This document shows positions 8,956 to 62,275 of a stretch of DNA of 64,000 nucleotides, in pieces; the stretch's first letter is position 1; each line of letters starts with the position of its first letter. This stretch comes from Sphagnum magellanicum (taxonomy: Eukaryota; Streptophyta; Sphagnopsida; Sphagnales; Sphagnaceae). The stretch spans positions 4,510,041 through 4,574,040 of the forward strand of contig CM038917.1 of NCBI GenBank assembly GCA_021904315.1. The letters run 5' to 3'. The position numbers were made by a program, and so were the translations under genes. The notes under the pieces are model-generated. The model saw nothing but the letters and a program-made list of their open reading frames with translations, had not been told where the DNA came from and ran no database searches.

Positions 8956-9020
8956 TGATGCCACGTGGCGCCCTGAAAATTTAGATTGCGTTTTGAGGCC
9001 TCAGGCCTACCTCCACTAAA
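8956..9020 (+). repeat. 65-bp dispersed segment P2, second copy
   Basis: Lies immediately upstream of the copy B duplication; G-box palindrome at 8,960-8,969. It is missing at the equivalent place before copy C. Confidence 0.88.
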
Positions 9021-9237
9021 AAACTGCTTTCTGTTAAAATAGAATAGTTTTTAATGATCACTGTCCCCACCCAAAAACGTCATAAAAGCCTGTTTAAACA
9101 CTCAAAGACCATTTATGTCTATATCTTGACCAGTAATAATCACCCTCCAAATCCATGCTAACTTTTTAACAGGTTAAAATGACCACTGCAAATTGACATA
9201 AATACTGGAGAGGAGCATGAATTACATTACCCCGCTG

Positions 9238-12200
9238 CAAGATTAAGCAATGGGTGATATCAGAGAAAGTGTTAGTGGTGGTGGATGATGTTGGTAAGGT
9301 GAACCTTATATCTTTGCAACTTCTCATTGGAAAGGTTGTCAAGAATGCAATTTCTAAAAGCAAAGTACTTGTGAATTGTCAAAATTGACAAATTCTGCAA
9401 TCAGATGTAAATGAGGATTAAAAAATAGTCATGAAATCTTTGGAGGAAGAGCAAGCAAGGGCACTATTTATGTTCCATGCATTTAGTAATGCAAATCATG
9501 TTCCAACAAAGGATTTCAAAAACATATGTATGAAGATTATAAATGTTTGTGGGGGGCTCCTTTAAGTCTTAAAGTATTGGGTTCTTTTCTCTCCGATATT
9601 AAAAAATTAGAAAATCTAGGAAGGTGCATTGAACAAATTGAAAAGTAAGCAAAGTTTCACTGGGGGGACCATGATAATGAAGAGCTTTGGAGTAAATTGA
9701 AGATTCTTATGAGTACTTGGATAAACAACATCAAAACATGGTTTTGGATATTGGTTTTTTTTGGGTGGTTTGAAATTAAGTACAATTTGTTGAATGTGGA
9801 ATAGAGATTATTTAAACCCAAAGTTTGAATTACAAAATTTACAACATAGGTCTTTAGTCTAGTGGGCAAAAGATGGAATCTTATACATACATGAACAATT
9901 ACAAGACATGGGTTGAAATATTGCAATGGAACTTCCAATTATGAATCGATTTATATGGAAATCAAATAAGTCAAATTTCTTTTTACAAAATGATGAGGTT
10001 GTCACCATACTATTTCAATCCTATAATTATATTTTGATTTCCTATGATTTTTTTAATGTCCAGAACCAAATGTTTTAAATTTGAATCTTGATATATATAT
10101 ATATATATAGTAAAAAATGGCATTAGGATGAAATTTTCTTTTATATTGACAATCCTTTTGTTTTCATTTCATGTGATAGGTGGTGGAGAATTCAAAAGGC
10201 ATGTCATTGAAAAGATGTGTCGATTTGCGTATTTTTTCCCAAATTGGCTAAAAGGGATTTTGCAACCTTAGGTTGGTTGACCTAACAAAAGTTTCACCAA
10301 CTGTAGTGGAAAATTACATCCAAGGGAAATTTTTGAATAATGTTAAATGGTTGTGCTTTTCAAAATGCATGATTCGAAAATTACCAAGTAATTTGTTTTA
10401 TTGTTTACAATTACAAGTACTTGATTTGGAACAATGCCAAAGTTTTTTTTAATACCTTCATCTATTAGCCAATTGAAAGCATTCCAAAAATTTGATATAA
10501 CAAGGTGTGGGGGATTGCAAAAATTTCCAAATCTATTGGCTAATTGAAAGCATTCCAAGAATTTGATTTGAAAAGGTGTCAAAGCTTACAAAATTCGCTT
10601 ACATCTATTACCCAATTGAATGAACTCCAAAACTTTGATTTGTCAAGGTGTTCCAACTTCAAAAAACTAACTTCATCTATTGGCCAATTAAATGCATTCT
10701 AAGAGTTTTAATTGTCATGTTATTCCGAATTGAAAGAAGTACCTTCATCTATTGGCCAATTGAATGCATTCAAAAAACTTGATTTGAAAGGGTGTTCCAA
10801 CTTGAAAGAACTACCTTCGTATATTGACCAATTGAATGCACTCCAAAAGCTTGATTTGAAAGGTTGCTTTGAGTTGAAAAAAATACGTTCATCTATTGGC
10901 CAATTGAATGCACTCAAAAAGCTTGATTTGAAAGGGTGTTCCAACTTGAAAGAATTACCTTCATATATTAACCAATTGAATGCACTCCAAAAGCTTGATT
11001 TGAAAGGTTATTATGAGTTGAAAAAATATTTTCATCTATTAGCCAATTGAATGCACTCAAAAGGCTTGATTTGAAAGGGTGTTCCAACTTGAAAGAACTA
11101 CCTTCATATATTGATCAATTGAATGCACTCCAAAAGTTTGATTTGAAAGGTTATTCTGAGTTGAAAAAAATACCTTCATCTATTGGCCAATTGAATGCAC
11201 TCCAAAAGCTTGATTTGATATGGTGTTGCAACTTGAGAAAACTACCCTCATCTATCGGTCAATTGAATGCACTCTAAGAGGTTGATTTATTAGGGTGTTC
11301 CAATGTGAAATAAATACCTTCATCTATTGACCATATTGAATGCATTTCAATAATTTATTTTGTGTGAGTGCTCCAACTTGAAAGAACTACCTTCATCTAT
11401 TGGCCAATTGAATGCATTTGAAGAACTTGATTTGAAAGGGTGTTCCAACTTGAAAAAATTACCTTCATCTATTAACCAATTGAATGCACTCCAAAAGTTT
11501 TGTTTGGACTACAAGTGTCCCAACTTATATAACTACCTTTATCTATTAGGCATTGAATGTAATCCAAATCTTTATTTATAACACTTCTTTAACTTGGAAA
11601 CATCATGAAAGAAGTACATTCATCTATTGGTTAATTGAATGTTCTCAAAGTGTTTCATTTATCAAAGTGTTCCAACTTGAAATAATTATTTTCCTCTATT
11701 GGCCAATTGAATATAATCCAAAAGCTTCATTTGTCAAAGTGTTCCAATTTGAAAAAACTACTTTCATTGATTGGTCATTGAATGCACTTGAAAATCTTGA
11801 TTTGTGTGAATGCTTCAATTTGTAGGAATTACTTACATGTACATTGACCAATTAAATGCACTACAAAAATCTTAATTGTGGGAATGTACGAACTTGCACG
11901 AATTACTTACGTTTGTTGGCCAATTTAATGCATTCAAGGAATTTAATTTGTTAAGGTGTTTCAATTTGAAAGAATTACCTTCATCTATTGCCAACTAAAT
12001 CACTAGTACAAAACCCCTATTTTTCAACCAACCGACCTTTGGCTTGATGTCATCTTCGACTACGTCTTAATTATAATTTGTTGAATATTTAAAAACATTA
12101 TTCACAATTGCCAAGTAAATTGACTTGCCTACTCTTTTGGTGGACAAATGAAGGAAAATCTCAACTATTTTGGAGCTCATGGAATATTCTTAACACCCAC

Positions 12201-12648
12201 ATGGTCTACAATTGAATTGTAGTTGAAATGTTGACTTGGAAAATTACACACTTTATAATTAAGCCTCTAGGGTGGTGTGTCAACTAAGAAAATCCCATGT
12301 TCAACTATTTTAGTCAATTACGAAACATAGTGATGCATGATAGATCACACATGGATGGATGACATTGAGATTGGGATTAATGTTTGTGTTGCAAGTATTA
12401 TCTCTCAACTACATTTACAAGTTGAAAGGCAAAAAACGAATGTTGGGCACTCTTACATACTATGCCAACACCTCAATTGCAAGTGCTACTTAGTAAACAT
12501 GACAACAACCATTGTGCCATGCTCTATAAACATTGATATGCATGGTTCTTGTTTGAAGAAACGAATATTTATTGAAGTTGTCAAAGCCAATAAAGCCACA
12601 ATGATGAAAATATGTTCCTTCTCTTTGAAAGACCCCAATAGTTAGATT
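9238..12648 (+). pseudogene. NLR pseudogene copy B (5'-truncated NB-ARC-LRR)
   Basis: Paralogue of the HNL gene, collinear from just upstream of Walker B (VLVVVDDVGK near 9,268) through MKSLEEEQARALFMFHAF, a broken GLPL region, the IHE motif, the same phase-0 intron (9,998-10,179) and an LRR array (about 10,430-11,995). Hydrolase domain, P-loop and RNBS-A are absent. Many stops and frameshifts break the NB-ARC and LRR parts, for example TGA and TAA codons near 9,386 and 9,418. LRR units read LKELPSYIDQLNALQKLDLKGC, related to but distinct from those of the minus-strand gene. A 102-codon block at 12,337-12,645 remains open. Non-functional as an NLR. Confidence 0.88.
12337..12645 (+). other. 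102-codon open block downstream of the LRR array, copy B
   Basis: An ATG-to-TAG frame of 102 residues (starts MIDHTWMDDIEIGIN, ends CSFSLKDPNS). It is conserved with a few substitutions in copy C and is present but broken, in inverted orientation, downstream of the HNL gene. Its position directly after the LRRs suggests it was the post-LRR C-terminal region of this NLR family. I recognise no named domain. Whether it is translated on its own is unknown. Confidence 0.5.
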
Positions 12649-12734
12649 TTGAAAACTATCAAATTAATTGATGATTTGTCAAAAACATTCAAATCCTAGG
12701 TTCCATGATAGATGGTGGGCAAAAATGATTCATG

Positions 12735-12935
12735 TAAGTCGTAAAATATTGGGTTTCTTTTTGTGCAATACTAAAAAATTGGAAATTTGAGAAGGTGCAT
12801 TGAGTAAATTGAAAAGTGGGCAAAGTTTCACCAAAGGCCATGATAATTAAAAGCTTTGGAGTAAATTGAAGATTTTTTATGAACATTCATATAAAGAACA
12901 TCAAAACATGTTTTTGGATGTTAAATCAAATTTGA
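12735..12935 (+). pseudogene. Orphan ARC2-like NB-ARC fragment, copy B
   Basis: About 200 bp reads, with breaks, as the segment that follows GLPL in NB-ARC: LKVLGSFLCNTKKLE-like, then GALSKLKSGQSF, a KLWSKLKI part, and NMFLDV. It matches both the NB-ARC of the minus-strand gene and the main NB-ARC remnant at 9,560-9,760, yet lies downstream of the LRR array. It is therefore a second, separate fragment, absent from the equivalent place behind the HNL gene. Confidence 0.7.
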
Positions 12936-14684
12936 AGGAAAATAATCAACCTAAGTTTGTAAGATTTTTTCATTTGTGAAAAAAAAATTGAACTAATTGT
13001 TTAGCTAAATTCCACATTTGAAAAAAAACTAATTCAACTAAAATTTTAAGATTCTGTTTCATTTGAAAAAAGGATGAAAGTATTGATGATAGAATAAATA
13101 TAACTAGTTATGTGAAAACATTCAAGTTATTTGTTCATGTTAATGTTTGGAGGGTTTTTTCCTCATATATATTTATGTTTTTTGATTATGTGTTTTAGTT
13201 TCTTTTCATTGAGTAAGGTTAGGAGTCTAAGGCATAAGAACATATTTTCGAAGGATATTTCATTTTTCTTGGCTGATTAGTTTTTACATCTTGCAAATTG
13301 AGATCTTAATGGCATTAAGGTTTGAAATGATAAAACAGCCTTATTTATTGTGAATAAGTTTAATGAATTTATGTGATGTGTATGTTATTGTATACGCTTG
13401 CAAATCATGTCTTATTTTTCTTCATTAATCATCAAATTGAGAAATGCAATTTGATTTTACAAAAAATGTTTACAATAACTTGTCTTTGCATTATGGAAAG
13501 GTTCACAAATGGGGGTTGATAATCAAACATAGGCAATGAAATAAACATGTGTTATCACCTTGATGACCATGGTTAGATTATAGTTGATGAGTTTAGCTTC
13601 AATGGATGCAAACAAGTTCATGTGTTATTGTGCTCATCATATAATAACTAATGTAACATAACCAATGGGTAACATTATGTATTAGGTAAATATTAACTAG
13701 TGTTTAAAGGGTCAACTAGTGCATGTAATGAATGTCTAGTTGTTGAGCCATGCAAATGACAACATTACTACTAAAAATCCCATTATTCGTGATAGTTAGT
13801 CCCTAAGTTTGGATTATCTAACATAACCAAAAAAAAATTTGGACAACAAAGTTTCATAAATGAAATGTAGTGGACTCTTTCAAATAGATAGTAGTACTTG
13901 AAGCATCAAAAATGCCAAATTATAACAATAATGCAACAAAAATTTCCAAATAAACGTGTGTGCCTAATAGGAAGCTCCAAATTGGAAGAATATTTATGTT
14001 CAAATATCAAAGGATTTTTTTACGTGAAAATTCATGAATAGTAAAATTGAATCTATAAGGTATGAATGGTGTAGGGTAGGTACAAAGTAAAATAAAGTAT
14101 GAAAATACTAGTGAGAACCCCCTTCCCCTCCTTTAAACCGATTCAAAAACAACATGTTAAACACGACTATTCAAAAACTAATTATGGTGGTCTTGCTTAA
14201 TAGCTTTCTTTTTTCAAGTTTGTTTAGAAGGTGTGAATGATGTTTTGTATGAGACACCAATAAATAAATATTGTAAAATGTAAGTTAAGAGCATTTAGTT
14301 GAATCCATGTTATTTTTTAAAAAAAACATTGCACAACTTCTTTGTGTAATGCTTATAAGCAAATGGGTTTAGTTAGTTAAAATGATGCAACAACATTGGA
14401 TTGGCTATTCAAAAATAATGTTTTTACAAATGTGTTTTACAAGTTGATTTTTAAAAAAACCATACACAATGTTGCATTTAAAATATTATGTAAATTTTTA
14501 ATGAATAGTCTCCCATAAATAAATATGTCATCTTCAAATCATTTTAAGTTATTTAAAAAGTCCATTAAACAATAAAATACATTGTTTTAAAAGACCTTAT
14601 GGGCATTTTACCTTTATTAGATTCATTTCAAACTTAGATATATGTTTTGAAAATATATTAAAAACCATTAGTATATAAATGTAT

Positions 14685-28069: not shown

Positions 28070-29333
28070 ATTTTTGCCCACCATCTATCATGGAACCTAG
28101 GATTTGAATGTTTTCGACAAATCATCAATCAACTTGATAGTTTTCAAAATCTAAATATTAGGGTCTTTCAAAGAGAAGGAACACATTTTCATCATTATGG
28201 GTTTGTTGGCTTTGACAACCTCAATAAATATTTGTTTATTAAAACTAGAACCATGCATATATACCAATGTTTGTAAAGCATGGCATAATGGTTGTTGTCA
28301 TGCTTATTAAGTAGCACATGCAATTGAGGTGTTGACATAGTATGTAAAAGTGCCCAACATTCATTTTTTGCCTTTCAACTTGTAGGTCATAGTCAAAAGA
28401 TAGTCCTAATGTGCACTTGCAACAAAAACATTAATCCCAATCTCAATGTCATCCATCCATGTGTGATTTATCATCCATCACTATTTTTTGTAATTGACCA
28501 AAATAGTTGAACATAGGACACACCACCCCTAGATGTTCGACTAGAATTCAACTAGAATTCAATTACAATTCCATTGTAGACCATGGGGGTGTTAAGAATA
28601 TTCCATGAACTTCAAAATAGTTGGTTTTCCCCTTCATTTGTCCACCAAAAGAATAGGTGGTTCGATTTACTTAGCAATTGTGAATAAATTTTAAATATTC
28701 AAAAATTACAATTAAATGTAATTGAAGATGATGTCAAGTTGAACGCGGGTTGGTTGAAAAAGAGGGGTTTCTTACTAATGATTCAATTGGCAATAGATGA
28801 AGGTAATTGTTTCAAATTGAAACACTTTAACAAATTAAGTTCCTTGAATGCATTAAATTGGCCTATAAACGTAAGTAATTCCTGCAAGCTTGTATAATTT
28901 AAGCTCACACAACAAAAACTTTTGGAGTGCATTTAATTGGCCAATGTACATGTAAGTAATTTTTGCAAGTTGAAACATTTGCACAAATCAAGATTTTCAA
29001 GTGCACTCGATGACCAATAGATGAAAATGGTTTTTTCAAGCTAAAACACTTTGACAAATGAAGCTTTTGAAATGTATCCAATTGACCAATAGATGAAAAT
29101 ACTTATTTCAAGTTGGAACACCTTGACAAATAAAACACTTTGAATGCATTCAATTCACCCATGCATGAATGTATTTTTTTCACAATGTTTTCAAGTTGGA
29201 GAAGTTTTATAAATAAAACTTTTGGAGTGCATTCAATTCACCAATAGATGAAGGTAGTTCTTTCAAGTTGGCACACCTTGACAAATTAAGTTTTTGGAAT
29301 ACCTCGATTGGCCAATAGATGAAGGTCGTTCTT
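28070..29333 (-). pseudogene. Decayed 3' part of the HNL gene: residual LRRs and broken C-terminal block
   Basis: Downstream of the present stop, LRR-like 72-bp units continue to about 28,790 with many substitutions and indels, so the ancestral coding region was longer. Beyond them, 28,790-28,070 is clearly homologous on the minus strand to 11,975-12,731 (copy B) and the matching part of copy C. That block includes the region that in B and C keeps a 102-codon ORF; here it is interrupted, for example by a TAG soon after the conserved MDDIEIGIN start. Homology to B stops abruptly near 28,070. It is most simply read as the former C-terminus and 3' UTR of the gene. Confidence 0.75.
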
Positions 29334-31472
29334 TCAAGTTGGCCCACCTTGACAAATCAAGTGCTTGGAGTACATTGATTGGCCAATAGATGAAGGTAGT
29401 TCTTTCAACTTGGAACACCATGATATATCAAGCTTTTGGAGTGCATTCAATTGGCCAATAGGTGAAGGTAGTTCTTTCAAGTTGGAACACCCTTTCAAAT
29501 CAAGCTTTTGGAGTGCATTCAATTGGCCAATAGATGAAGGTAGTTCTTTCAACTTGGAACACCATGATAAATCAAGGTTTTGGAGTGCATTCAATTGGCC
29601 AATAGATGAAGGTAGTTCTTTCAACTTGAAACACCATGATAAATCAAGGTTTTGGAGTGCATTCAATTGGCCAATAGATGAAGGTAGTTCTTTCAACTCG
29701 GAACACCCTCTCAAATCAAGGTTTTGGAGTGCATTCAATTGGCCAATAGATGAAGGTAGTTCTTTCAAGTTAAAACATGTTGACAAATCAAGGTTTTGGA
29801 GTGCATTCAATTGGCCAATAGATGAAGGTAGTTCTTTCAACTCGAAACACCTTGACAAATCAAGGTTTTTGAGTGCATTCAATTGGCCAATAGATGAAGG
29901 TAGTTCTTTCAAGTCGGAACATTCTGACAAATGAAGCTTTTGGAGTGCATTCAATTGGCCAATAGATGAAGGTAGTTCTTTCAAGTTGCGATAGTTGAGC
30001 AAATAAAGTTTTTGGAGTGCATTCAATTGGCCAATAGATGAAGGTAGTTCTTTCAATTCGGAACATTCAAACAAATAAAACTTTTGGAGTGCATTCAATT
30101 GGCCAATAGATGAAAATAGTTCTTTCAACTCGGAACACCATGATATACGAAGATTTTGGAGTGCATTCAATTGGCCAATAGATGAAGGTAGTTCTTTCAA
30201 CTTGGAACACCTTGACAAATCAAGGTTTTGGAGTGCATTCAATTGGCCAATAGATGAAGGTAGTTTTTTCAACTCGGAACATTCAAACAAATAAAGCTTT
30301 TGGAGTGCATTCAATTGGCCAATAGATGAAGGTAGTTCTTTCAACTCAGAACACCCTCTCAAATCAAGCTTTTGGAGTGCATTCAATTGGCCAATAGATG
30401 AAGGTAGTTCTTTCAACTTGGAACACCATGATAAATCAAGGTTTTGGAGTGCATTCAATTGGCCAATAGATGAAGGTAGTTCTTTCAACTCGGAACATTC
30501 TGACAAATAAAGCTTTTGGAGTGCATTCAATTGGCCAATAGATGAAGGTAGTTCTTTCAACTTGGAACACCTTTTCAAAACAAGGTTTTGGAGTGCATTC
30601 AATTGGCCAATAGATGAAGGTAGTTCTTTCAACTTGGAACACCCATTGAAATCAAGCTCTTGGAGCGCATTTAATTCGCCAATAAATGAAGGTAGTTCTT
30701 TCAACTCGGAACATTCTAACAAATAAAGCTTTTGGAGTGCCTTCAATTGGCCAATAGATGAAGGTAGTGCTTTCAACTTGGAACACCATGATAAATCAAG
30801 GTTTTGGAGTGCATTCAATTGGCCAATAGATGAAGGTAGTTCTTTCAACTCGGAACACCCTCTCAAATCAAGGTTTTGGAGTGCATTCAATTGGCCAATA
30901 GATGAAGGTAGTTCTTTCAACTCGGAACACCCTCTCAAATCAAGGTTTTGGAGTGCATTCAATTGGCCAATAGATGAAGGTAGTTCTTTCAAGTTAAAAC
31001 ATGTTGACAAATCAAACTTTTGGAGTGCATTCAATTGGCCAATAGATGAAGGTAGTTCTTTCAACTTGAGACACTTTGACAAATCAAGGTTTTGGAGTGC
31101 ATTCAATTGGCCAATAGATGAAGGTAGTTCTTTCAACTTGGAACACCCATTGAAATCAAGCTCTTGGAGCGCATTTAATTCGCCAATAAATGAAGGTATT
31201 TCTTCCAAACTTTGGCATTGTGCTAAATCAAGTACTTGTAATCGTAAACAATAAAACAAATTATCTGGTACTTTTCGAATCATGCATTTTTTGAGGCACA
31301 ACCACTTAACAGTACTCAAATTTCGCCCTTGGATGAAATCTTCCACTATAGTTGGTGAAGCTTCTGTTAAGTCAACCAACCTAAGGTTGGGAAATCCCTT
31401 TGAGCCAATTTGGGACAATGTAGGCAAATTGACGCATTTTTTCAATGAGATGCCTTCTAAATTTTCCACCAC
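29334..31472 (-). repeat. 72-bp tandem array encoding 25 near-identical 24-residue LRRs
   Basis: This exon encodes about 25 full leucine-rich repeats and one partial. Each carries the core LKELPSSIGQLNALQ followed by a short variable strand ending in a Cys, for example LDLSWCSK. At DNA level the unit is 72 bp and mostly identical between neighbours. A distinctive variant (FIGELNALQELDFNGCSK) occurs at repeats 1 and 8, about 504 bp or seven units apart, which shows a block duplication. The array ends near 29,375 where one base is lost compared with the other units, producing a 14-residue out-of-frame tail and a stop. Confidence 0.9.
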
Positions 31473-34400
31473 CTATCACATGAAATGAAAACAAAAAGGA
31501 TTATCAATATTAAAAAAAAATCATCCTAATGCCAATTTTTATTAGAAAAACATTTATTTATAAAATAAAAATTCAAAATTAAAACATTTGGTTTTGGACA
31601 TTAACAAAAATCATAGAAAATCATAATAAAATTATAGGATTGAAATAATATGTGACAACCTCATCCTTTCGTAATAATAAATTTGACTTATTTGATTTCC
31701 ATATAAATCGATTCATAATTGGAAGTTCCATTGCAATACTTTGACCCATGTCTCGTAATTGTTCATGTATGTGCAAGATTCCATCTTCTGCCCATTCGAC
31801 TAAAGATCTATCTTGTAAATTTTGTAATTCAAACTTTGGGTGTTCATAATCTCCACTCCACACTCGACAAATTGTACTTATTTTCAAACCATTAAAAAAA
31901 CAAGCAATATCCAAAAACATGTTTTGAAGTTGCTTATCCAAGTGGTTATAAGAAATCTTTAATACACTCCAAAGCTCTTCATTATCATAGCCCCCTGTCA
32001 AACTTTTCCCACTTTCCAATTTGCTCAATGCACCTTTCCACATTTGTAATTCTTTAGTATTGCACAAAAAAGAACCCAATACTTTAAGACTTAAAGGGAG
32101 CCCCCCACAAGCTATTATAATCTTCGTACATATATCTTTGAAATCCTTTGGTGGATCATGATTTGCATTACCAAATGCATGGAACATAAATAGTTCCTTT
32201 GCTTGCTCTTCCTCCAAAGATTTCATGACCACTTTTCCATCCTCACTTACATGAGATTTTAGAATTTGCCAATTTCGACAATTCACAAGCACTTTGCTTT
32301 TAGAAATTGCATTCTTGGCACCCTTTTCAACGAGAAGTTGCAAGGATGTAAGGTTCTCCACCTTACCAACATCATCCACCACCACTAACACTTTCTTCGA
32401 TATCATACATTCTCTAATTTTGTCAAGGTTTTCATTCACATTTTCATCCTTGCATAACCTTTTGCCACACAAATCATGTAGGAGTTGTTTAATGACATCA
32501 TTGATATCGTCCTTTGATTTCACATCCTCCAAAAAACTAGATTTGTCATATTGGTTGTGGAACAAATGATAAAATTTTTTACACAAAGTGGTTTTTCCAA
32601 TCCCACCCATTCCAACCAAACCAACAATATATTGCTTTTGTAACAAGATGTTTATGTCTCGTGCTTTGTCAATCAACGCCACCTCATGACATGGCAAACG
32701 TGGAAGCAATATATTTTTCTGTCAAAATTCACAAAATATAGGTCATTTATATGTTATCTTTTTTATTTGATAACCAATATATATGACATTGCATATGCAA
32801 AACACATCAAATGTGTTGTGACCAAATGTGTTTCAAATTACATGAACATATATGAAATCAAAAGATTTAAATTTGATGTTTTTACCTTCATACATATTTT
32901 CAAACATTGTAATAATAAAGAATAGCTTGGATGATCCTTGTTTGGTGGCTTGCAAATTGTCAAGTGATTAGCATCCTCTATTCTATATTGGTTGTTGTCT
33001 GACAATTGAATAGCTGAAGCATATGGCACTAAAATTCCCTACATGTGCAAAAAATTAAATTAATGAAACTCATTGACTTGTTTGTTCACTTATGTTTAAA
33101 CTTATAAGCCAAATGGTGGTGGAAACTATAGTTTAATAACTATTGACGTTTGAATAATAATGAATTATTGTGTACAAGTAATTTCCTTCAACCTTTTGGC
33201 AAACAATTTATATAAATACATCACAAAGTTATTGGTTTTTAATCTCATGAATCTTATATATTTTAACAATGTTATGATTTTCCTTACAAATATTTCTAAG
33301 GAATTGATTTGATGAAGGGAAATTTAAACCTATTTCTTGATGGTTGAAATCAATCAAATTTCAGTTCCATTAATAGTAATTCATGAAACAAAGTTCATAA
33401 AACACATGACCCATTCACCACATTAATATATTCAGAAGTATTGAGTACATGATCCCACACGAGTTTTGACAATACAAAAAATGTTCAATTAATGAACCTA
33501 GTTGGATAACTTTTAGTGTGGTGAAATGAAAATCTTACAAAATTTTCGTCAATTGGTAATCCTTCACCAAATGCATAAATGTTGAGGTCTGCATGAATGG
33601 CATTTATAAAATCCTTTGAAAGGTACTCCATTTGTAGGTTGAAAGGTTCTAATTTTTTTGAAAAACCAGGTTGGGTTGCATATTTGTTGAAGGTGTTGAT
33701 TTGTTGACATTGCCAAGTGAAATATTTTGATAAATATTGGGTACCACCAAAATGTGGTACACCATAAAATACTACACCTTTGACATTGTTCAAAAATGTT
33801 TTACAACATTTGTGTACTTCATCATCCAAACCATTTTTTGGCCTTTGATATACACGTTTGTGAGCTTCAACCACCAAGCTTTTGAGTACAAGACCTCCAA
33901 AACTATAAGCAACTAATGCCACTGGTCCGTTCCAAAGGGATTGATAACTACAAAATATTCAACAATGCACAAAAATTCCATTATCAACATTGTATTAGCA
34001 TGTACAAATTTATCCTAATATACTTAGGGGCAATTTTTCAATTCACACATGACTTAAGCCATAAGTTTATAATTGATTTGCTTGTCATATGTTATTTTCA
34101 TTTATTGACTACATTAATCTACCTAAAAAATGTGACAACCATGTTTTGATAAAACAATTATTATGCACAAGTATGTAGGTGTTTACATTCTTGTGTTAAT
34201 GTACAATTCATCTCCTATGTGTTAGCTCAGCAATATAGTTGAAAATTAAAAAAATATAAATTACAAAAAAAAACCTTTTAAATTTTTATTTTTTTTTGCA
34301 ATGAAATGGATGCAAATTTTCAACACATGTATTAATTCAATTCAATTGCATTACCAAAGATAAAGCTTCAAAAAGTGTGAACTAAAAATTGCCATAAAAA

Positions 34401-35187
34401 CCAAACTAGTTGTACCATGAATTTATAATATGAACATAGACTTTGCTATTATCTTAAAGCAATAACATTTGCATTTAAGCCCCATTTTATGTTCTCCTAC
34501 ATGAATTTAACAATTCAAGTAAATTGAAACTTGTTGGTGTGTATCATAATACTAGCACACATGAACCATTAACTCATGCAAAACATTTAAGAAATTCTAA
34601 AGATGTAAACAATTATCTTTAATGCACACAAGGAGAAGTAATTAATGTGTCCATAAATAGAGGAGATTGTCACACCTTGAATTTGTAACCAAACTTTGAA
34701 TGAGGTTTTTGCCAATTTCAGTCACATCATTGTGAACACTTGCCACAATGTTAGAATCATAGGACAATGATAAAATTCGAACATTGTTGTTCAAGTCTTC
34801 GGGTAACCACTTTTCTGGCCAACATATGCATTCTTTTCTATTGTTGGTGGGGTATGTTGTCCATGTTTCCTTCCATTCATCATTTGTGCCAAAAACAATC
34901 CCATGAAAAAAAATGATGGTCAAATTTGGATTATTGGAATTGCAAGTGGGATTTAAATCATGCACTGGATATTTCTGCAAAGAAAATGAAAATGAATCAA
35001 CACAATTCTTCAAATGCCTCTTGGAAATTATTTGACTATACATGAAATAAGAAAAATGCAATATACAAATTATAATAGTTAGATAAAGGCAATAATTAGT
35101 TGAAAAGATTAAGTTTAACAAGATCATAATAATAAATGAATTGGAAAATACCAAATCTATCTTGCATGACCAACAAATGAAGATCAT
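29334..35187 (-). CDS. Alpha/beta-hydrolase-NB-ARC-LRR immune receptor (HNL-type NLR), six-exon model
   Basis: Predicted intracellular immune receptor of the hydrolase-NBS-LRR class. My model joins 35187-35152, 34974-34676, 33947-33539, 33038-32886, 32718-31660 and 31472-29334; every junction is GT-AG and keeps frame, giving about 1364 residues. The hydrolase (about 13-299) shows FFHG (oxyanion region, His36), candidate nucleophile Ser127 in AYSFGG and candidate catalytic His273 in DANHLTICKP, resembling SERAC1-like hydrolases. NB-ARC (about 300-652) has P-loop GMGGIGKTT (335-343), Walker B LVVVDD (to 415), GLPL (505-508), TNL-like FLDIACFF (568-575) and IHE (616-618) in place of MHD. The last exon holds 25 LRRs and then stops after a one-base loss. 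The first exon (12 codons) is the least certain part; an in-frame TGA lies directly before its ATG, which favours that start. It is probably expressed, but it could be a recently truncated allele. Confidence 0.85.
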
Positions 35188-35880: not shown

Positions 35881-36253
35881 TTGTTAACACACGCGCAAAC
35901 AAAATTTAAAAAAGCAAAAGAAAAATCAAACTTCAACAAATAACTTGGGAAAGCACAAGAAGGTATCCGCACAATCGTAGCAGGTGTCCGCACAACATCT
36001 TTCCATGGGAAAGCCCAAGAAAGAACTGTGCAAAGAAAGCTCATCATAAAATTAAGAAGAAGCGCCACATTGTTGCGCCATCCAGAGCTTGATGGAGCAT
36101 TTTCAGCATGGACCAAAGGTGTCTCAATCACAGCAGGGATCTGCACAAGATCTCTCTTTCTTTTTGGTGACCTTTGTGAAAGATCAACTCCTTTTCCCTT
36201 GAAGCCATATGAATCTCCCATATTTCGCACTACTGAAATTCTTTTTGACACGC

Positions 36254-37479: not shown

Positions 37480-39283
37480 AGACAAAATGGTGTGCGGAAA
37501 AAGCATGTCAACATTTCTTGCATATGTATTGTTCTTGTCAAGCTGAACATCTCCAGATACACCATTCACATGCATAGAACTTCATGAGATCAATGCTGCA
37601 AGATTGATTGATTGATTACGGAGAGATTGATCAATTGCTGAGAGAGATTTTGGCAATGAAAATGGCAAGATGGACATGAACATTGTTTGTGACACAACAG
37701 TGAGCTATGGAGTCAAGCAGCTTCCGACTGCTGCAGGCAGGGTCAGGTTATGATCAGCTTGGAAGCTCAAGGGTTTGCAAAGATGCAAGAATATTCATGA
37801 AGGTAGCAAGTAAGAAATTTCTTTTGTTTGAAATTCAATCCAATCATTTGTGTCTGCTTTGTGCATATTGAGATAATGCAAGTCAAGAGACACTCTCTTA
37901 TGGGGCCTGGCCCAAGTGATTATTAATTGCATACACTACTTTTAAAGGCTCGTCCTAGTAATGGCCAAGCTATCATTCCACCTGCAAAGTTTGTGTGCTG
38001 CATGATAAGTATAAAAAGCATCCTGAAACTTATCTCTACTTCTAAGATGCAGAAACTGGCAGCAGATGTGGTCAATACTGGACAGCAGTGAGAAAGGAGG
38101 TGCTCTTGTTCCTAGTCATCTCCATGACAGATCTGTGGCACAACATTTACTAAATTGTTGCAGTAAACCAATGCCCTCTAGTATTGCTGAAACATGCCTC
38201 ATTTTGATAAACTTGGTGTTCACATGATGTCATATGCAGATGACCCCATTGTGCTGTGGTTGGACTTCACTAAGAAACTATGGTACGCATCATTTCAGAT
38301 TTCTACTGTTTTGAAGTCCAGGTTCAGCGTTGACAATTGATGGGACAGAGTTAATAGTCAGGAGAACTGGAGAATACATGCATGGCATCCAAATCTCAAT
38401 GTTCTAAAAGCCTACTTTGGAAGCATTCTCTATATGCCAAAATGAGGATTTGGCTGATGTTGGAACAACTGTTCCTGTATTTGTTCTTCCTGAGCATCAA
38501 GGAGTCTGGTTGCAGAGCTTTCTTCAATAGCAATGGCTGATCTCTGCTTCTCTTTCTGCTCAAAGCATCCTTAGCTGGTTGAGCCCCTGGATAAGACTGT
38601 GGTACTTAATTGCCATGCAAAGGTAGTAGTACTCTCAATTGCTGTTTCACCAAAGGGAATGGCCTGCCTATGGGAAGGAAAGGGAGTATCCAATGCAATG
38701 CATTTTTCTGCTGCAGTTCCAAACGTTTTCTCTTGTGAGTCTCTCTCCTGAGAAGCTGCAGAACTTGCTTGAATACACTGTGAGGAAGATCAAACAATGT
38801 TAGAGTTGAGGAGGCTGCTTTTGAGTCCGTTGCCCCCATCATGGGAACTTGTAATGTTGATGATACACTAAATTCAGAAGATGCAGTGAACACTATCATG
38901 GAGCTGTTCATCAAAGGACATGAGGGGTTTGTGTTGGAAGGTGGCCCTCCACATCTTTTTGTAGGCATCCACAATATTCATGACTATGTCTATAGAGTTA
39001 GACATCAGGTTGGAGCAGCACCTAGGAAACATAATTGGGATGTGCTAAGGTAATGGAGGCAATTGTTCCTGGGACATATTGACAATCCGTTTGCAGCTGA
39101 TGAATTGGTTCCCTGTTCTGTACGAGGAGCTTTGAAAACATCCAGAGTTCACATTTGCTATGTGGTGCAGTGAATGAGGTGTTTGAGAGGGAAATTGTAG
39201 ACTTTGGTGTCGTTGAGATGGGAACATAGTCAGGTCATCCTTGATATGTCAGGGGAAGGTGCAAGAGCTGGCAGTTGAGTGTC
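37480..39283 (+). pseudogene. Unidentified decayed gene-like sequence upstream of and inside repeat copy 2
   Basis: Higher-GC sequence with several short protein-like frames (for example DDPIVLWLDFTKKLWYASF near 38,240-38,300 and LDKTVVLNCHAKVVVLSIA near 38,590-38,645), broken by stops and frameshifts, running into the 70-codon frame at 38,841-39,053. It could be a gene captured by a mobile element or the remains of a resident gene. I cannot name the family. Confidence 0.35.
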
Positions 39284-41507
39284 TCCTAGACATTTGAGTG
39301 TATGATTGGATAGATCGCAGATGTTTTCAGGTCATATTCAAGAATACTGGAATCCTTCTTAATCTGAACAGAGGAGTGATTTTTCTTGGTGAATTTTCGC
39401 ACTGTGGCTACGAAGAAAATTTGAGAAATTGGGAAAATTCGTTTCAATAGTGTGAATTTGAGAAAAAAAATGCTCAATAAATGGAAAAAATTGACCAAGT
39501 TCACAAACCACAAAATTGAAAAAAAATAAGAGAAAAGAAAAAAACACTGATAATATTTGTATCTGGTATACCAGGTACAAATATTAGCCTTGACCAAACC
39601 AGCATCTATACCGGTACCAAGTTACAAAGGCTTTGGGTTTGCTTCTAATCATTAGTAGAAAGTGTGGGTGCAATTCTTTACTCTTCATTTATTAGACCAG
39701 TGAATTCACCAATTTTTTAACTAATTATTTAAACTAATGAATTCATTCAAAATTTAGCAAAATCACTTGACAAAACATCTTTTGTTGTAACTAAAATCAC
39801 CCTCTAGAGCAGCTCAACAGGTGCTCTGAGTATATTGCAATGGAACAAAATATTTCTCAAAACCAGGATTAGAATTTTTATTTATTTTTTTCCCAACCCC
39901 ATACTAAAACTGACAATGCAAATGATCGGTACCCAACAATAGCTATTAGCAACCTACTTCGACGAACCAGCTGTCTAACAGTCTATTGAACAATCAATAG
40001 CAGGTATTGTCCTTTGCTGAGCCTTTTGCCTACCGTGGTATTCTCAGGGAAACTGTCCAGGCCAAAGCCATTGTGCTGAGCCAAAATTTGTGGTCTAGGG
40101 CCATATACCCAGCACCTGTGAACCTGCTCTTAGGCCCACTTTACAATAGGAGTCGAGGACGATGTTCAACTCAAATCATGCATCCCTGTGGGTGCAAAAG
40201 TTGAAATCAGCGTCAAGTGCTAAATTACACTAAGATTCAAGGCCATAAAAGAAAAAATCTTTTCGATCTGCCCCAAGTTACTAATAACTTATGTTGGCCC
40301 CAAGGCTGAAGAAAAGGATACCATCAAATTTGGGAAGCCAATTTGCAACCCTTGTGGCCAATGTTGTAGCATTTTTAAATAACTTAGGGCCAGACAAAAA
40401 GCAAAAAACGCTCAGAGTTGCCCCAAGTTTTCTCAGCCCTAACTCCTAGTGTAAAGCAGGCCTTAGACTAAATCAGGGTCTCTGAGTTCAAATTTAAGAT
40501 TTCTTTTATGCGTCTTGCAGTGATAATCGGGGAAAGGCCTCATTCAAGAAGGTGAATGCATTAATGTAGGTGCAGGTTCAGCCTGGTCATTAATTACAGG
40601 TTTCCCCAATTCCTTCACAAACAACAGACTTGGTTGCGGGCACCATAACACAAAGCAAGTTAGAAAACCAAAAGTGAGCAAAAAGTTACTGGCTTTCACT
40701 AGGTTAAGGCCTCAGATCACGGATCCAACATGTTTGCACTTTGCACCAGATGTCAATCGTGCTGGTTGTGGTTCTCGGTGTCAAAACGGTCTTGCAGTAA
40801 AACATCATTAGGCCCACTTTAGGCGAGGGTCCAGGGTCCGATTTCCTAGGAACCAATTTGGACTCATGCGAGGCAAATTGATTTCTTGAGTTGTAGTGTA
40901 CCTGGGTCCCTAACCTGATTCTTGGTTCTCCAAATCAGGAGCTCTCCTTTTAGCACTGTCTTTTGGTCCCAACCAATTGATTTTCCCTCCAAAACAGGTG
41001 GCATATTAGCCTGAATTTGTCACTTTTTGGTCTTGGACCCTCGTCTAAAGGCCTTTGGGACCAATTTAAAACTTTCGACCAATAAGATTGCTTGAATTCA
41101 TTGGTTCCTTGACCTTGGACCCTCATCTAAAGTTGCCCTTAGTTTCACAACATGTTTTTCCATATTTTATTTAGGGTGCACACATATATACCTCTGTACC
41201 AGTGTTTTTTTTCCCTTTCCTTCTTTTCTCAATTTTGTGGTTTCTAAACTTTGTCAACTTTTCCATTTTATGTGCATTTTTTTCTAGAATTCACACTGTT
41301 AAAACGAGTTTTCCCAATTTCTTTAAATTTTCTTTGTAGCCACAGTGCATAAAGTCACCAAGAAAAATCACTCCTCTCTACAATTTATTATTTTTTTTTT
41401 TTCCTACTCTGGATTTATTTGCTATGACCTTCCATGTAATTTTTCCTTCTCCCCCCAGGCTGCTCCAATCATAGCCACTGGCTGGGGTGAACCAGCACCT
41501 ACACTGG
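38684..41507. repeat. 2.7-kb repeat, copy 2 (pairs with 1-2,709)
   Basis: Second copy of the unit at the window start, in the same orientation. It carries an extra 118-bp stretch at 39,967-40,084. It is preceded by 37,480-38,683, which may be a further part of the same unit lost beyond the window edge in copy 1, and it ends right against a FAD-monooxygenase-like fragment. Confidence 0.92.
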
Positions 41508-49261: not shown

Positions 49262-49339
49262 TCAAAAAAGTGTTGAAGGATTATTAATGAGCCTTCGTGG
49301 ATTAGGACAAAATTTATGTTTAATAAACCAAAAGTGCAT

Positions 49340-51140
49340 TGTCTTGTTAAAAGGATGTTGGAAGATTATCAAGGAGTTTTGGAGGACCTTGACAAGGCTG
49401 ATGTTTTTGAACCAAACAATGCATTCACCTTGAAGAGTCGTGGAAATGTCAAACACATGTTTAATGCCTATCAAGGAGCCTTGGAGGACCTTGACAAGGC
49501 TGATGTTCTTCAACCAAACAATGCATTCACCTTGAGGAATCGTGGAAATGTCAAACACATGTTGCATGACTATCAAGGAGCCTTAGAGGACCTTGACAAG
49601 GCTAATGTTCTAGAACCAAACAATGCATCCACCTTTACGAGTCGTGGAGATGTCAAAAGGATGATGAATGAGTATCAAGGAGCCTTGGAGGACCTTAACA
49701 AGGCTGATGTTCTTGAACCAAACAATGCATCCACCTTGAGAAATCGTGGAAGAATCAAATACATGTTGGATGACTATCAAGGAGCCTTGGAGGACCTTGA
49801 CAAGGTTAATGTTCTTAAACCGAACAATGCATCCACCTTGGGGAGTCGTGGATATGTCAAAAAGATGCTGAAAGAGTACCAAGGAGCTTTAGAGGACGTT
49901 GACAAGGCTAATGTTCTTGAACCAAACAATGCATTCACCTTGAGGACTCGTGGAAGAATCAAATACATGTTGGATGACTATCAAGGAGCCTTGGAGGACC
50001 TTGACACAGCTGATGTTTTTCAACCAAACAATGCATTCACCTTGAGGAATCGTGGAAATGTCAAACACATGTTGCATGACTATCAAGGAGCCTTGGAGGA
50101 CCTTGACACGACTGATGTTCTTGAACCAAACAATGCATTCACCTTGAGGAGACGTGGAGATGCCAAAAGGATGTTGGATGACTATCAAGGAGCCTTGGAG
50201 GACCTTGACACGGCTGATGTTCTTGAACCAAACAATGCATTCACCTTGAGGACTTGTGGAGATGTCAAAAGGATGTTGGATGACTATCAAGGAGCTTTGG
50301 AGGACCTTGACACGGCTGATGTTCTTCAACCAAACAATGCATTCATCTTGAAGACTCGTGGAAGAATCAAATACATTTTGGATGACTATCAAGGAGCCTT
50401 GGAGGACCTTGACACGACTAATGTTCTTGAACCAAACAATGCATTCACCTTGAGGACTTGTGGAAGAATCAAATACATTTTGGATGACTATCAAAGAGCC
50501 TTGGAGGACCTTGACACGACTGATGTTCTTGAACCAAACAATGCATTCACCTTGAGGACTCGTGGAGATGTTAAAAGGATGTTGAAAGAGTATCAAGCAC
50601 CTTGGAGGACCTTGACAGAGCTGATGTTATTGAACCAAACAATGCATCCACCTTGAGGACTCATGGAATAATCAAATACATGTTGGATGACTATCAAAGA
50701 GCCTTGGAGGACCTTGACAAGGCTGATGTTATTGAACTAAACAATGCATCCACCTTGACAAGTCATGAAAATGCTAAATACATGTTGGATGACTATCAAG
50801 GAGCCTTGGAGGACCTTGACAAGGCTGATGTTCTTCAACCAAACAATGCATTCACCTTGAGGATTCGTGGATATGTCAAATACATGTAGCATGACTATCA
50901 AGGAACCTTGGAGGACCTTGACAAGGTTAATGTTCTTGAACCAAACAATGCATTCACCTTGGCGAATTGTGGAAATGTCAAATACATGCAGCATGACTAT
51001 CAAGGAGCCTTGGAGGACCTTGACAAGGCTGATGTTCTTGAACCAAATAATGCATTCACTTTGACGAGTCGTGGACTTGTCAAATACATGCAGCATGATT
51101 ATCAAGGAACCTTGGAGACCATAGATAAAATTCATCATCT
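49340..51140 (+). repeat. 102-bp tandem array encoding about 18 TPR units
   Basis: Near-identical 102-bp units. Conserved positions cover YQGALEDLDKAD and PNNAFTL, while the helix starting KRML/KHML/KYML and the residues after PNNAFTL vary. The last unit (LETIDKIHHLQPNDH) is divergent and leads into the kinase linker. Antisense frames over the array are open only because of the repeat. Confidence 0.88.
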
Positions 51141-53071
51141 TCAACCAAATGATCATTTGATATTGGAAATTCTAAAAACGTTGAAATGGATGTTAAATGA
51201 ATACCGACCCACAATAGAATTGTTGCCATTCAATTCAAGTATTCAATCTTTTACACACAATGAATTGAATTTTGGAACAAGTTTGGGGGAAGGAGCCTTT
51301 GGTATGGTGTATCAAAGTTGTTTGAAAGGCACCAAGATTGCGATTAAAGTTTTAAAATGGAGTGGTTCCTTTAATGAAGGTGCAAAAAAATCTTTCATAT
51401 TTGAAATGCGCACTTTGGGATCTATTCGACATACCAATTTGGTTCGTCTTTTGGGTTATTGTATTGAAGGCTCAAAACATATGTTGGTATATGAATACGT
51501 TTCAAATTCATCTCTTGAAAAATGGTTCAATAAGGACAACCTTTTGGATTGGGAACGACGAATGTGCATCATTATAAGGGTTGCTCAAGGATTAGCACAC
51601 TTGCATAAATGTAATCCGACCATTATCCATCTTGACATCAAACCACAAAGTATCTTTTTGGATCAAGATTACATCCCAAAATTGGCTGATTTTGGGTTGG
51701 CAAAAAATTTTAATGGCAAGGATGAAGATGTGGTATGTGCCCCACCATTCTTTTTTTTATTGGTTATGTGCATGCACACTATATCTTAGTGTGATTATGG
51801 ACCTTGCAAATTTGAACATTCTTTTTGGGCACAACTTGCTAATTTCATAGTTACATTATTATAGGTCATGGAACAAATATGATAAACATTCACAATCTAA
51901 AATGAATATTTGAAAAACACTTAATTTAATAATTCATGAAATTACATTTAATATTACAAAATTTCTTTTTATGTGTGCATGAGTAATGACACAAGGCTTG
52001 GAACTTTTGTGATTGAAAAAAATTCAAAAATAAATTATGGGTTCCTATTGGTATTATATGGGGTCTTGGGTGTGAGTTTTATGAACTTCAACATGTACAT
52101 TCAATGCATGTGACACCTATTGAAATTATTGATTTGTTTGGAAAATTCAAATTCAGGTGGAGTTAACTTTTTCTACACCAGGAACAGTCGGATATATGGC
52201 ACCGGAAATTCTTGAAAAAAAGCAAGCATCAACAAAAAGTGATGTGTATAGCTTTGGAGTCTTGTTGATAAAACTTGTGAATGGATCACCATTCATTTTA
52301 GATGGAAATGAAGTTTACATTCATAAATTTATCCAATGGGCACAAGAGGTTCATATGAAAAAAATTGGATTTCAACAAATTTTCAATGTTGTAATCGATA
52401 ATTCAATCATTGGGTTTGATTACAATGAAGCCAAATCACTTTTGCAAATTTCCCTTCAATGCATCCAAGTAATTTTTCTTCCAAATCTTTTATGTGTGTC
52501 ATTTAATTTGTTGTGAAGCAAATTTGAAAAGCCCAAATCATGGATTTGATGTAGTACTTGAGACAATTTGAAATAAATTAAACTAGATTGTCCACTGAAT
52601 GTAAAACTTCCTAAGAGGGTTTACGCATGAAAATGGTACATTCAATTTCACTTGGAATTCTTTTAGACCATTTGCATGATTGATATGTATAGTTGAAAGG
52701 AATATATTATTTTCAAAGTCAATAAAATTATGTTGTTGAATAAAGATATAAGTTGGTTTCAACATTCTTTTTTGAAGGATATATGTTCAAATTGTGTCGT
52801 TGCAAATTGAAACATAAACATGTAGTTCCATTTATTCGAGCATTTTTCCATGGTTTGATTATAATGTATAACTATTACATAATAAACATCTAACTTTTAT
52901 GACATTTGTTTCTTATAGAAAGATCCAAATCAAAGACCAGGAATCCAAGAAGTTCTGCAACGTTTTGAAGGATTGAACAAAAAGAAAGGCATGCAAAATA
53001 TTCCCACATCAATTCAAGTACATTTCAACATATTATTGAAAAGATTTGTCCCCACTTTCAAATGGATGTGA
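50986..53071 (+). CDS. Open C-terminal part: two TPR units plus non-RD Ser/Thr kinase (403 aa)
   Basis: From the first in-frame ATG after the internal stop, exons 50,986-51,732, 52,157-52,468 and 52,919-53,071 read through to TGA. Kinase landmarks, numbered from this Met: glycine loop GEGAFG (101-106), Lys121, Glu140, HLD (215-217, Leu where RD kinases have Arg), Ser222 at the usual Mg-binding Asn position (DIKPQS), DFG at 235-237, APE at 264-266, and the subdomain XI Arg in NQRP at 359. The domain is of the plant receptor-like/Pelle type. The catalytic Lys and both Asp residues are kept, so activity is possible; the Asn to Ser change may reduce it. Translation from this Met is a hypothesis. 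Confidence 0.6.
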
Positions 53072-58411: not shown

Positions 58412-58501
58412 TCACTTCTTGAGAGAGGGCTTTTAGATCTTTGTCGATTTAGAGACCCTGATTTTGTCTAAGATCATCTCCACCCCAAAAACTGCAAAAA
58501 A
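58412..58501 (+). repeat. Dispersed segment P1, second copy
   Basis: Abuts the start of the copy C duplication through a shared A6 run. Confidence 0.85.
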
Positions 58502-58713
58502 CTACTTTCTGTTAAAATAAAATAGTTTTTAATGATCACTATCCCCGCCCAAAAAGTCATAAAAGCCTGTTTAAACACTCAAAGACCATTTATGTCTATA
58601 TCTTGACCAATAATAATCACTGTCCAAATCCATGCTAACTTTTTAACGGGTTAAAATGACCACTGCAAATCGACATAAATACTGGAGAAGAACATGAATT
58701 ACATTACCCCGCT

Positions 58714-61700: not shown

Positions 61701-61984
61701 ACCTTGAGATTGGGATTAATGTTTGTGTTGCAAGTATTGTCTCACAACTACATTTACAAGTTGAAAGGCAAAAAACGAATGTTGGGCACTCTTACATACT
61801 ATGTCAACACCTCAATTGTAAGTGCTACTTAGTAAACATGATAACAACCATTGTGCCATGCTCTATAAACATTGGTATGGATGGTTCTTGTTTGAAGAAA
61901 CAAATATTTATTGAAGTTGTCAAAGCCAATAAAGCCACAATGATGAAAATATGTTCCTTCTCTTTGAAAGACCCCAATAGTTAG
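58714..61984 (+). pseudogene. NLR pseudogene copy C (5'-truncated NB-ARC-LRR)
   Basis: Near-identical duplicate of copy B, with the same truncation just before Walker B, the same intron (59,474-59,659), the same degenerate LRR array (about 59,925-61,335) and an open 102-codon block at 61,676-61,984. Stops and frameshifts are mostly shared with B, so most decay preceded the duplication; a few are private. Short open LRR pieces (60,211-60,615 and 60,665-60,895) are remnants, not genes. It lacks the hydrolase and P-loop regions. Confidence 0.87.
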
Positions 61985-62073
61985 ATTTTGAAAACTATCA
62001 AATTAATTGATGATTTGTCAAAAACATTCAAATCCTAGGTTCCATGATAGATGGTGGGCAAAAATGATTCTTG

Positions 62074-62275
62074 TAAGTCGTAAAATATTGGGGTTTTTTT
62101 TTTGCAATACTAAAAAATTGGAAATTTGAGAAGGTGCATTGAGTAAATTGAAAAGTGGGCAAAGTTTCACCAAGGGCCATGATAATTAAAAGCTTTGGAG
62201 TAAATTGAAGATTTTTTATGAACATTCATATGAAGAACATCAAAACATGTTTTTGGATGTTAAATCAAATTTGAA
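62074..62275 (+). pseudogene. Orphan ARC2-like NB-ARC fragment, copy C
   Basis: Counterpart of the copy B fragment, at the same distance downstream of the LRR remnant and with the same breaks, so it was present before the B/C duplication. Confidence 0.68.

Follow-up and report, generated by a model that had tools for sequence, protein, structure and literature searches.

Gene Architecture and Exon Model

On the minus strand of the 64-kb window, by which we mean the whole stretch of Sphagnum DNA analyzed, lies a gene (34974-29334) whose sequence predicts a SERAC1/DUF676-like α/β-hydrolase followed by a TNL-like NB-ARC and 25 LRRs (Table 1). A preceding sequence-only reading had proposed six exons with GT-AG sites throughout, joined in frame to a protein of 1364 aa. 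The join holds and the order of E2 to E6 is identical in all 20 paralogues read, but the proposed exon 1 was rejected as probably wrong, its frame being stopped in 18 of them. These close paralogues (L016-L035) are ranks 2-21 of the best 150 copies by E2 similarity, which inflates the identities between them. The extrapolated AG/GT sites are all canonical in 13 of the 20, with frameshifts or altered sites in the remaining seven. In the gene model, three introns are phase 0 (in the hydrolase, before the NBS and after the NBS) and one is phase 2. Exon continuity in all 20 paralogues supports a single predicted gene for hydrolase, NB-ARC and LRR, as in an HNL or Hyd-NLR.

Table 1. Features of the hydrolase-NB-ARC-LRR gene, in window coordinates.
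Feature	Position	Strand	Evidence
E0, probable true first coding exon, starts MGDSYGFKGKGVDLSQRSPKRKRD	36069..36221	-	ATG and open frame kept in 23/23 copies
Exon 1 of the sequence-only reading (MIFICWSCKIDL), probably non-coding	35152..35187	-	in-frame stop in 18/20 paralogues
E2: hydrolase, oxyanion HG and WP..W region	34676..34974	-	gene model, paralogue exon order
E3: hydrolase, nucleophile AYSFGG and FGEG	33539..33947	-	gene model, paralogue exon order, genome matches
Ser127 codon, predicted nucleophile	33902..33904	-	invariant in A1 and A2; kept in copies
Glu240 codon, predicted catalytic acid	33563..33565	-	sole acidic domain residue invariant in A1 and A2
E4: hydrolase end, DANHLTICKP	32886..33038	-	gene model, paralogue exon order
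His273 codon, predicted catalytic histidine	32964..32966	-	invariant in A1 and A2; kept in copies
E5: NB-ARC and winged helix, TNL-like, P-loop GMGGIGKTTL	31660..32718	-	Pfam; Roq1 best solved match
E6: 25 complete 24-aa LRR units, 72-bp tandem repeat, end after one-base slip	29334..31472	-	repeat and frame reading
Remainder of LRR repeat array, out of frame	28919..29333	-	repeat and frame reading

Apart from the window copy, only its two neighbours in the cluster (L018 and L020) keep the frame of the rejected exon 1 open. A better start is E0, the probable true first coding exon, which offers an ATG, an open frame and a phase-0 GT common to all 20 close paralogues; its donor is uncertain, the phase-0 GT at 36068 being kept in 18 of the 20. 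Across 23 copies the E0 frame contains no stop in 1173 codons. E0 gave 130 matches genome-wide, and for 121 a hydrolase exon follows downstream; some of the 130 are a second, partial match within one copy, and 105 of the 150 hydrolase copies listed are served. The pN/pS of 1.15 among the 23 copies counts against E0 as a coding exon, and a Pfam scan of E0 gave no match. E0 contains a basic PKRKR stretch, which we take to resemble a nuclear signal.

The Hydrolase and Its Predicted Catalytic Residues

In the N-terminal 798 aa, Pfam detected DUF676, a serine-esterase family, with 22.3 bits (cut-off 20.3), and a PADLOC hydrolase model matched the window hydrolase with 1.9e-7; together with the bacterial homologues, these matches point to an N-terminal α/β-hydrolase of the kind found in HNLs. 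Both residues named by the sequence-only reading for its SERAC1-like hydrolase, Ser127 in AYSFGG and His273, are present in the joined model. A phmmer search of the hydrolase against the PDB returned nothing convincing (best E 0.24), an NCBIfam scan had no match and viral contigs scanned with the window hydrolase alone contained no relative. A profile match to a solved structure covers the N-terminal half only, including the serine without Glu or His, which counts against the reading favoured below.

Two alignments were used for the comparison with bacterial or viral-contig homologues: A1 with six sequences (of 10 plasmid matches seven were fetched, and the partial L007 was left out) and A2 with 11 of 12 loci (L045, a poor match, was left out). 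Ser127, Glu240 and His273 are invariant in both alignments, which are not wholly independent since L003 (A1) is closely related to L039 (A2). Each of the 11 intact close copies likewise has all three residues, and among 17 divergent copies (L048-L064, hand-picked from the genome match list) the serine is found in 17/17, the glutamate in 17/17 and the histidine in 16/16 readable cases. In broken copies, residue states were read by position, so that frameshifts and insertions are scored as losses. The alignments contain a conserved candidate for nucleophile, acid and histidine alike; Glu240 is most likely the catalytic acid, and the three are probably the residues doing the chemistry. The alanine at the first Gly of GxSxG had been singled out before. 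The motif is as described, but the alanine is ordinary: nine of the divergent copies have AYS and eight GYS, with Ser in all, and (G/A)XSXG is a canonical lipase motif (PMC11889585). We therefore rejected it as the mark of a dead enzyme.

NB-ARC and LRR Array

The same Pfam scan identified NB-ARC (2e-34), a Roq1-type winged helix (5e-11) and LRRs. Compared with solved structures, the NB-ARC exon matched the TNL Roq1 best (6e-39) and the CNL Sr35 with 5.6e-17, which agrees with the earlier TNL-like assignment as judged by match E-values. The likeness to Roq1 covers NB-ARC and winged helix, whereas Roq1 carries an N-terminal TIR in place of the hydrolase.

Counting in frame gave 25 complete 24-residue LRR units, the number reported before. 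The stop at 29334 comes after a one-base slip inside a unit and the 72-bp array continues out of frame to 28919, so that "near-complete" was a fair description. The LRR frames stop at many different points among the copies read, and a shorter array may therefore be tolerated. Three clustered copies with an exon protein identity of 93-100% have 23, 27 and 45 LNALQ motifs, counted in the open LRR frame only. The C-terminus of L032 had no Pfam match.

Copy Number and Selection

Each of two hydrolase exons has at least 150 scored matches in the 439-Mb genome, and on these matches the hydrolase-NB-ARC-LRR family is one of more than a hundred copies. The earlier statement that the class is rare does not apply to this genome, and a review calls the hydrolase domain abundant in Marchantia, Sphagnum and Ceratodon (PMC10952240). 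Stop counts in the match tables of these two exons and E0 were made by eye. For the hydrolase, dN/dS was 0.47 when 11 intact close copies were compared and 0.29 for 15 divergent copies; between the window copy and its two nearest copies it is 0.84 and 0.81, with few changes. The EDS1_EP family had no match in the genome, but control genomes gave none either, so that the negative carries no weight.

Known Relatives

The closest described relatives are the Marchantia polymorpha HNL (Xue et al., 2012; PMC3352924) and Hyd-NLRs (Chia et al., 2024; PMC11218826), which share the N-terminal α/β-hydrolase, the TNL-near NB-ARC and the C-terminal LRR. For HNL, three conserved phase-0 introns are described, one within the hydrolase and one on either side of the NBS (PMC3352924); the phase-0 introns of the moss gene lie at such places and may correspond to them. 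Compared with these descriptions, the moss gene differs in an extra phase-2 hydrolase intron, a 5' exon set off by its own intron and a very homogeneous array of 24-residue LRRs.

Candidate anti-phage proteins of bacteria (PADLOC DUF626_VIII, PD-Lambda-4_A and LmuA) also resemble the moss protein in their DUF676-like N-terminus, whose homologous hydrolase has 20-27% identity and the same Ser, Glu and His. All six bacterial relatives scanned match PADLOC defence models, the defence role being the putative one of the model names. Several are large multidomain proteins; one is annotated with NB-ARC and WD40 repeats and one has a weak STAND/NACHT match. They are very divergent, and the six scanned with Pfam have no LRR array of the moss kind. 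Fungal sesB-like NLRs also carry a lipase-like α/β-hydrolase ahead of a NOD domain, and sesB-like hydrolases have been linked to bryophyte HNL and human SERAC1; as described, the fungal proteins differ by NACHT or NB-ARC with WD40, ANK or TPR repeats (PMC4986451).

Interpretation and Alternatives

We consider it likely that the gene is a Sphagnum-type HNL immune receptor acting, as we infer, through a hydrolase activated by clustering. This assumption is based on the exon architecture kept in the paralogues, the Pfam domains, the conservation of Ser/Glu/His in moss copies and bacterial homologues, the hydrolase dN/dS of 0.47 and 0.29, the PADLOC matches of the bacterial relatives and the finding that two Marchantia HNL hydrolase domains cause HR-like death and ion leakage in N. 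benthamiana (PMC11218826). The LRR array, with its variable repeat number and exposed positions, would sense a molecule that is either pathogen-derived or guarded, the NB-ARC would swap ADP for ATP and then oligomerise, and clustering would turn on the hydrolase as a Ser-Glu-His esterase or lipase, for which a lipid ester is a first guess as substrate. Its product or membrane damage would then lead to defence or cell death.

Several observations count against this reading, namely the frameshifted LRR end of the window copy, its hydrolase dN/dS of 0.84 and 0.81, the introns, which are nearly as similar as the exons among close copies, and the broken hydrolase in 10 of 20 close copies. It is possible, if rather doubtful, that the family is active but the window copy is decaying into a pseudogene, made non-functional by its frameshifted LRR end. 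The one-base slip with the out-of-frame remnants, the homology to other copies that extends to 28066, the broken paralogues and a dN/dS close to neutral in comparison with the two nearest copies would fit such decay; hydrolase, NB-ARC, 25 LRR units, P-loop and splice sites are all intact, however, and the variable frame ends suggest that a shorter array may be tolerated. Plant lipase-like immune regulators are able to signal without hydrolysis, and the hydrolase could likewise be a pseudo-enzyme that binds lipids or partners in an EDS1-type manner and scaffolds signalling on receptor clustering. This option is kept open for HNLs by a review (PMC10952240), and A1 and A2 show no acid after strand β7, where we would expect it; we regard it as unlikely, since all three residues predicted to be catalytic persist in copies of only about 50% identity and in the bacterial homologues. 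That the sequence-only reading merged a hydrolase gene with a neighbouring NB-ARC-LRR gene is hardly credible and was rejected, because E4 adjoins E5 across a short phase-0 intron (167 bp) in the window and likewise in 20/20 paralogues; in Marchantia, the N-terminal and LRR parts of HNL were linked to the NBS by RACE (PMC3352924).

Going beyond the HNL assignment, it is conceivable, but so far a speculative picture, that Sphagnum HNLs are a large enzyme-executing receptor family, in which a conserved 5' exon, with a PKRKR stretch similar to a nuclear signal, precedes a Ser-Glu-His hydrolase that shares homology with candidate anti-phage effectors and is steered by an LRR that is a coding 72-bp minisatellite growing and shrinking between close neighbours.

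The biochemistry of hydrolase-NLRs has been named as unknown by a recent review (PMC10952240). As the three probable chemistry residues are kept, the enzyme idea is easy to test: the Ser-Glu-His set conserved across the copies examined shows precisely which residues to mutate, and any construct designed from this gene model has to take account of the corrected start. The locus belongs to a large family of hydrolase-fronted immune receptors in peat moss; receptors of this kind are already known, and the new evidence is the conservation of Ser127, Glu240 and His273 across the aligned copies. Its hydrolase is homologous to bacterial defence hydrolases, which suggests that the chemistry is shared.

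The family in the Sphagnum genome

Exons E2 to E4 (hydrolase), E5 (NB-ARC) and E6 (LRR) of the gene are listed in the table, and the model length of 1364 residues in the sequence-only reading is reproduced when its 36-base exon 1 is included; residue numbers refer to this model. Pfam identified the NB-ARC, a Roq1-type winged helix and LRRs in the gene, together with a match to the serine-esterase family DUF676 barely over the cut-off.

Coordinates of the gene and of other features in the window
Feature	Position	Strand	Remarks
E0 (upstream ATG exon)	36221-36069	minus	donor site position uncertain
E2	34974-34676	minus	joins in frame, GT-AG borders
E3	33947-33539	minus	joins in frame, GT-AG borders
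E4	33038-32886	minus	joins in frame, GT-AG borders
E5	32718-31660	minus	joins in frame, GT-AG borders
E6	31472-29334	minus	joins in frame, GT-AG borders
LRR array	28919-31208		72-bp tandem repeat
NB-ARC-LRR remnant	9018-14684	plus	frameshifts, stops
NB-ARC-LRR remnant	58496-64000	plus	frameshifts, stops
TPR gene	49316-51789	plus	homogeneous 102-bp (34-aa) tandem repeat
Near-identical repeats	1-2709 and 38684-41507		98-99% over ~2.7 kb, two pieces

A search of the genome (438,994,042 bases, 31 contigs) revealed at least 150 matches each for E2 (best 150 of 323 candidates) and E3 (best 150 of 331), and no internal stop was seen by eye in 131 and 118 of the 150 matches listed, respectively. In 20 close paralogues, ranks 2-21 of the listed E2 matches, E2 to E6 are present in identical order throughout, all extrapolated splice sites are canonical in 13 and the hydrolase is intact in 10. 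Two of them are neighbours on the same contig, at ~39 kb (L020, exon protein identity 93-100%) and ~89 kb (L018, 95-98%). Because of both exon searches and the 20 copies read, the HNL class has to be called common here and not rare as initially noted, which passages of a review had already stated for Sphagnum (PMC10952240). According to passages of a 2025 moss review, canonical NLR genes, with angiosperm ones named, are absent from mosses (PMC11850516), which contrasts with the number of HNL hydrolase-exon matches in this genome.

Predicted catalytic residues

One alignment of the hydrolase comprised three paralogues and six homologues from bacteria, a second one eleven homologues from bacteria or viral contigs. 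In neither do Ser127, Glu240 or His273 vary, and Glu240 is the sole acidic residue invariant across both. All three are kept in the 11 intact close copies (window copy included), while in the 10 broken ones Ser is in place in 7, Glu in 8 and His in 10, the losses being mostly frameshifts or shifted reading; in the broken copy L022 Asn replaces Ser. The residues are also present in 17 divergent copies that were selected by hand and whose E3 identity falls to ~47% (Ser 17/17, Glu 17/17, His 16/16 where E4 was reached), in which the nucleophile motif reads AYS in 9 and GYS in 8. The catalytic acid is expected at the place after strand β7. As this place is non-acidic in 20 of 21 close copies (L031 has an Asp nearby), the acid is probably Glu240, which, judged from the sequence, probably lies after β6. 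The profile of the second alignment matched solved structures of esterases and lipases over its N-terminal half only, with BlEst2 as best match (7.5e-9).

Among the 11 intact close copies the hydrolase has a dN/dS of 0.47, dN being the smaller value in 54 of 55 pairs; the NB-ARC has 0.51. For 15 divergent copies (two of the 17 with stops were left out) the hydrolase value is 0.29, below 1 in 105/105 pairs at a median dS of 0.97. Comparison of the window copy with its two nearest copies gave 0.84 and 0.81, based on few changes. In ten close copies, introns (~88-92%) are almost as similar as exons (90-96%), as after recent duplication.

Start of the coding region

The exon 1 originally proposed is probably wrong: in 18 of the 20 paralogues its reading frame is interrupted by a stop. 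Scanning the paralogues for ATG exons ending at a right-phase GT revealed one, E0, that is kept in all 20 close copies and starts at 36221; the protein would then begin MGDSYGFKGKGVDLSQRSPKRKRD and continue. Its frame has no stop in 1173 codons from 23 copies, including L048 and L049 of a more distant clade, and E0 was not found in the stretches retrieved around L050, L051 and L052. Genome-wide, E0 has 130 matches, of which 125 show no internal stop when counted by eye; 121 of the 130 are located 0.5-2.4 kb upstream of a same-strand hydrolase exon, compared with a mean of 0.1 expected under random placement; these serve 105 of the 150 hydrolase copies listed. It counts against E0 that whole-block duplication by itself would hold it close to the gene, and its pN/pS of 1.15 gives no sign of purifying selection.

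LRR array and neighbouring features

The open LRR frame contains 25 complete units of 24 residues, with a pN/pS between units of 1.34 and variation peaking at positions 13, 15, 17, 18, 20 and 21. It terminates past a one-base slip, and the array goes on out of frame. The open LRR frames of the 20 close paralogues contain between 0 and 45 LNALQ motifs (cluster neighbours 27 and 45), and that of the window copy has 23. In L032 an open frame of ~590 residues follows the LRRs (L032:1145-2914, minus strand), for which no family was matched in Pfam; an integrated domain or a fused neighbour is possible.

The two NB-ARC-LRR remnants are 93-95% identical to each other and ~82% to the gene, and neither has a hydrolase match. 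In addition to the LRR array, the TPR gene is a second coding tandem array in the window, and after its repeat comes a frame that matches TPR and protein kinase. The near-identical repeats are probably a recent mobile element.

Relatives and possible mechanism

The homologous hydrolase is also located at the N-terminus of bacterial proteins, several of them large. PADLOC assigned DUF626_VIII to all six bacterial relatives analyzed, LmuA to three and PD-Lambda-4_A to one, and the gene's own hydrolase matched DUF626_VIII at 1.9e-7. A Gloeothece protein likewise combines the homologous hydrolase with an NB-ARC annotation, together with WD40 repeats, and passages of an earlier paper note fungal sesB-like NLRs as a third parallel (PMC4986451).

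Sequence, architecture, conservation of the residues and constraint on the family are observations, and the simplest reading of the gene is an NLR with a Ser-Glu-His hydrolase as output. In such a receptor the NB-ARC would switch and oligomerise, the output would be the enzyme activity of the hydrolase, and a role in immunity may be assumed. Passages of a recent study describe HR-like responses in N. benthamiana induced by two Marchantia hydrolase domains, and the catalytic mutants described in them concern TIR and kinase domains, not hydrolases (PMC11218826). The literature covered consisted of openly licensed papers, so the triad may already have been described elsewhere. The gene belongs to a kind of receptor already known; the useful gains here are its corrected start and its predicted catalytic residues.
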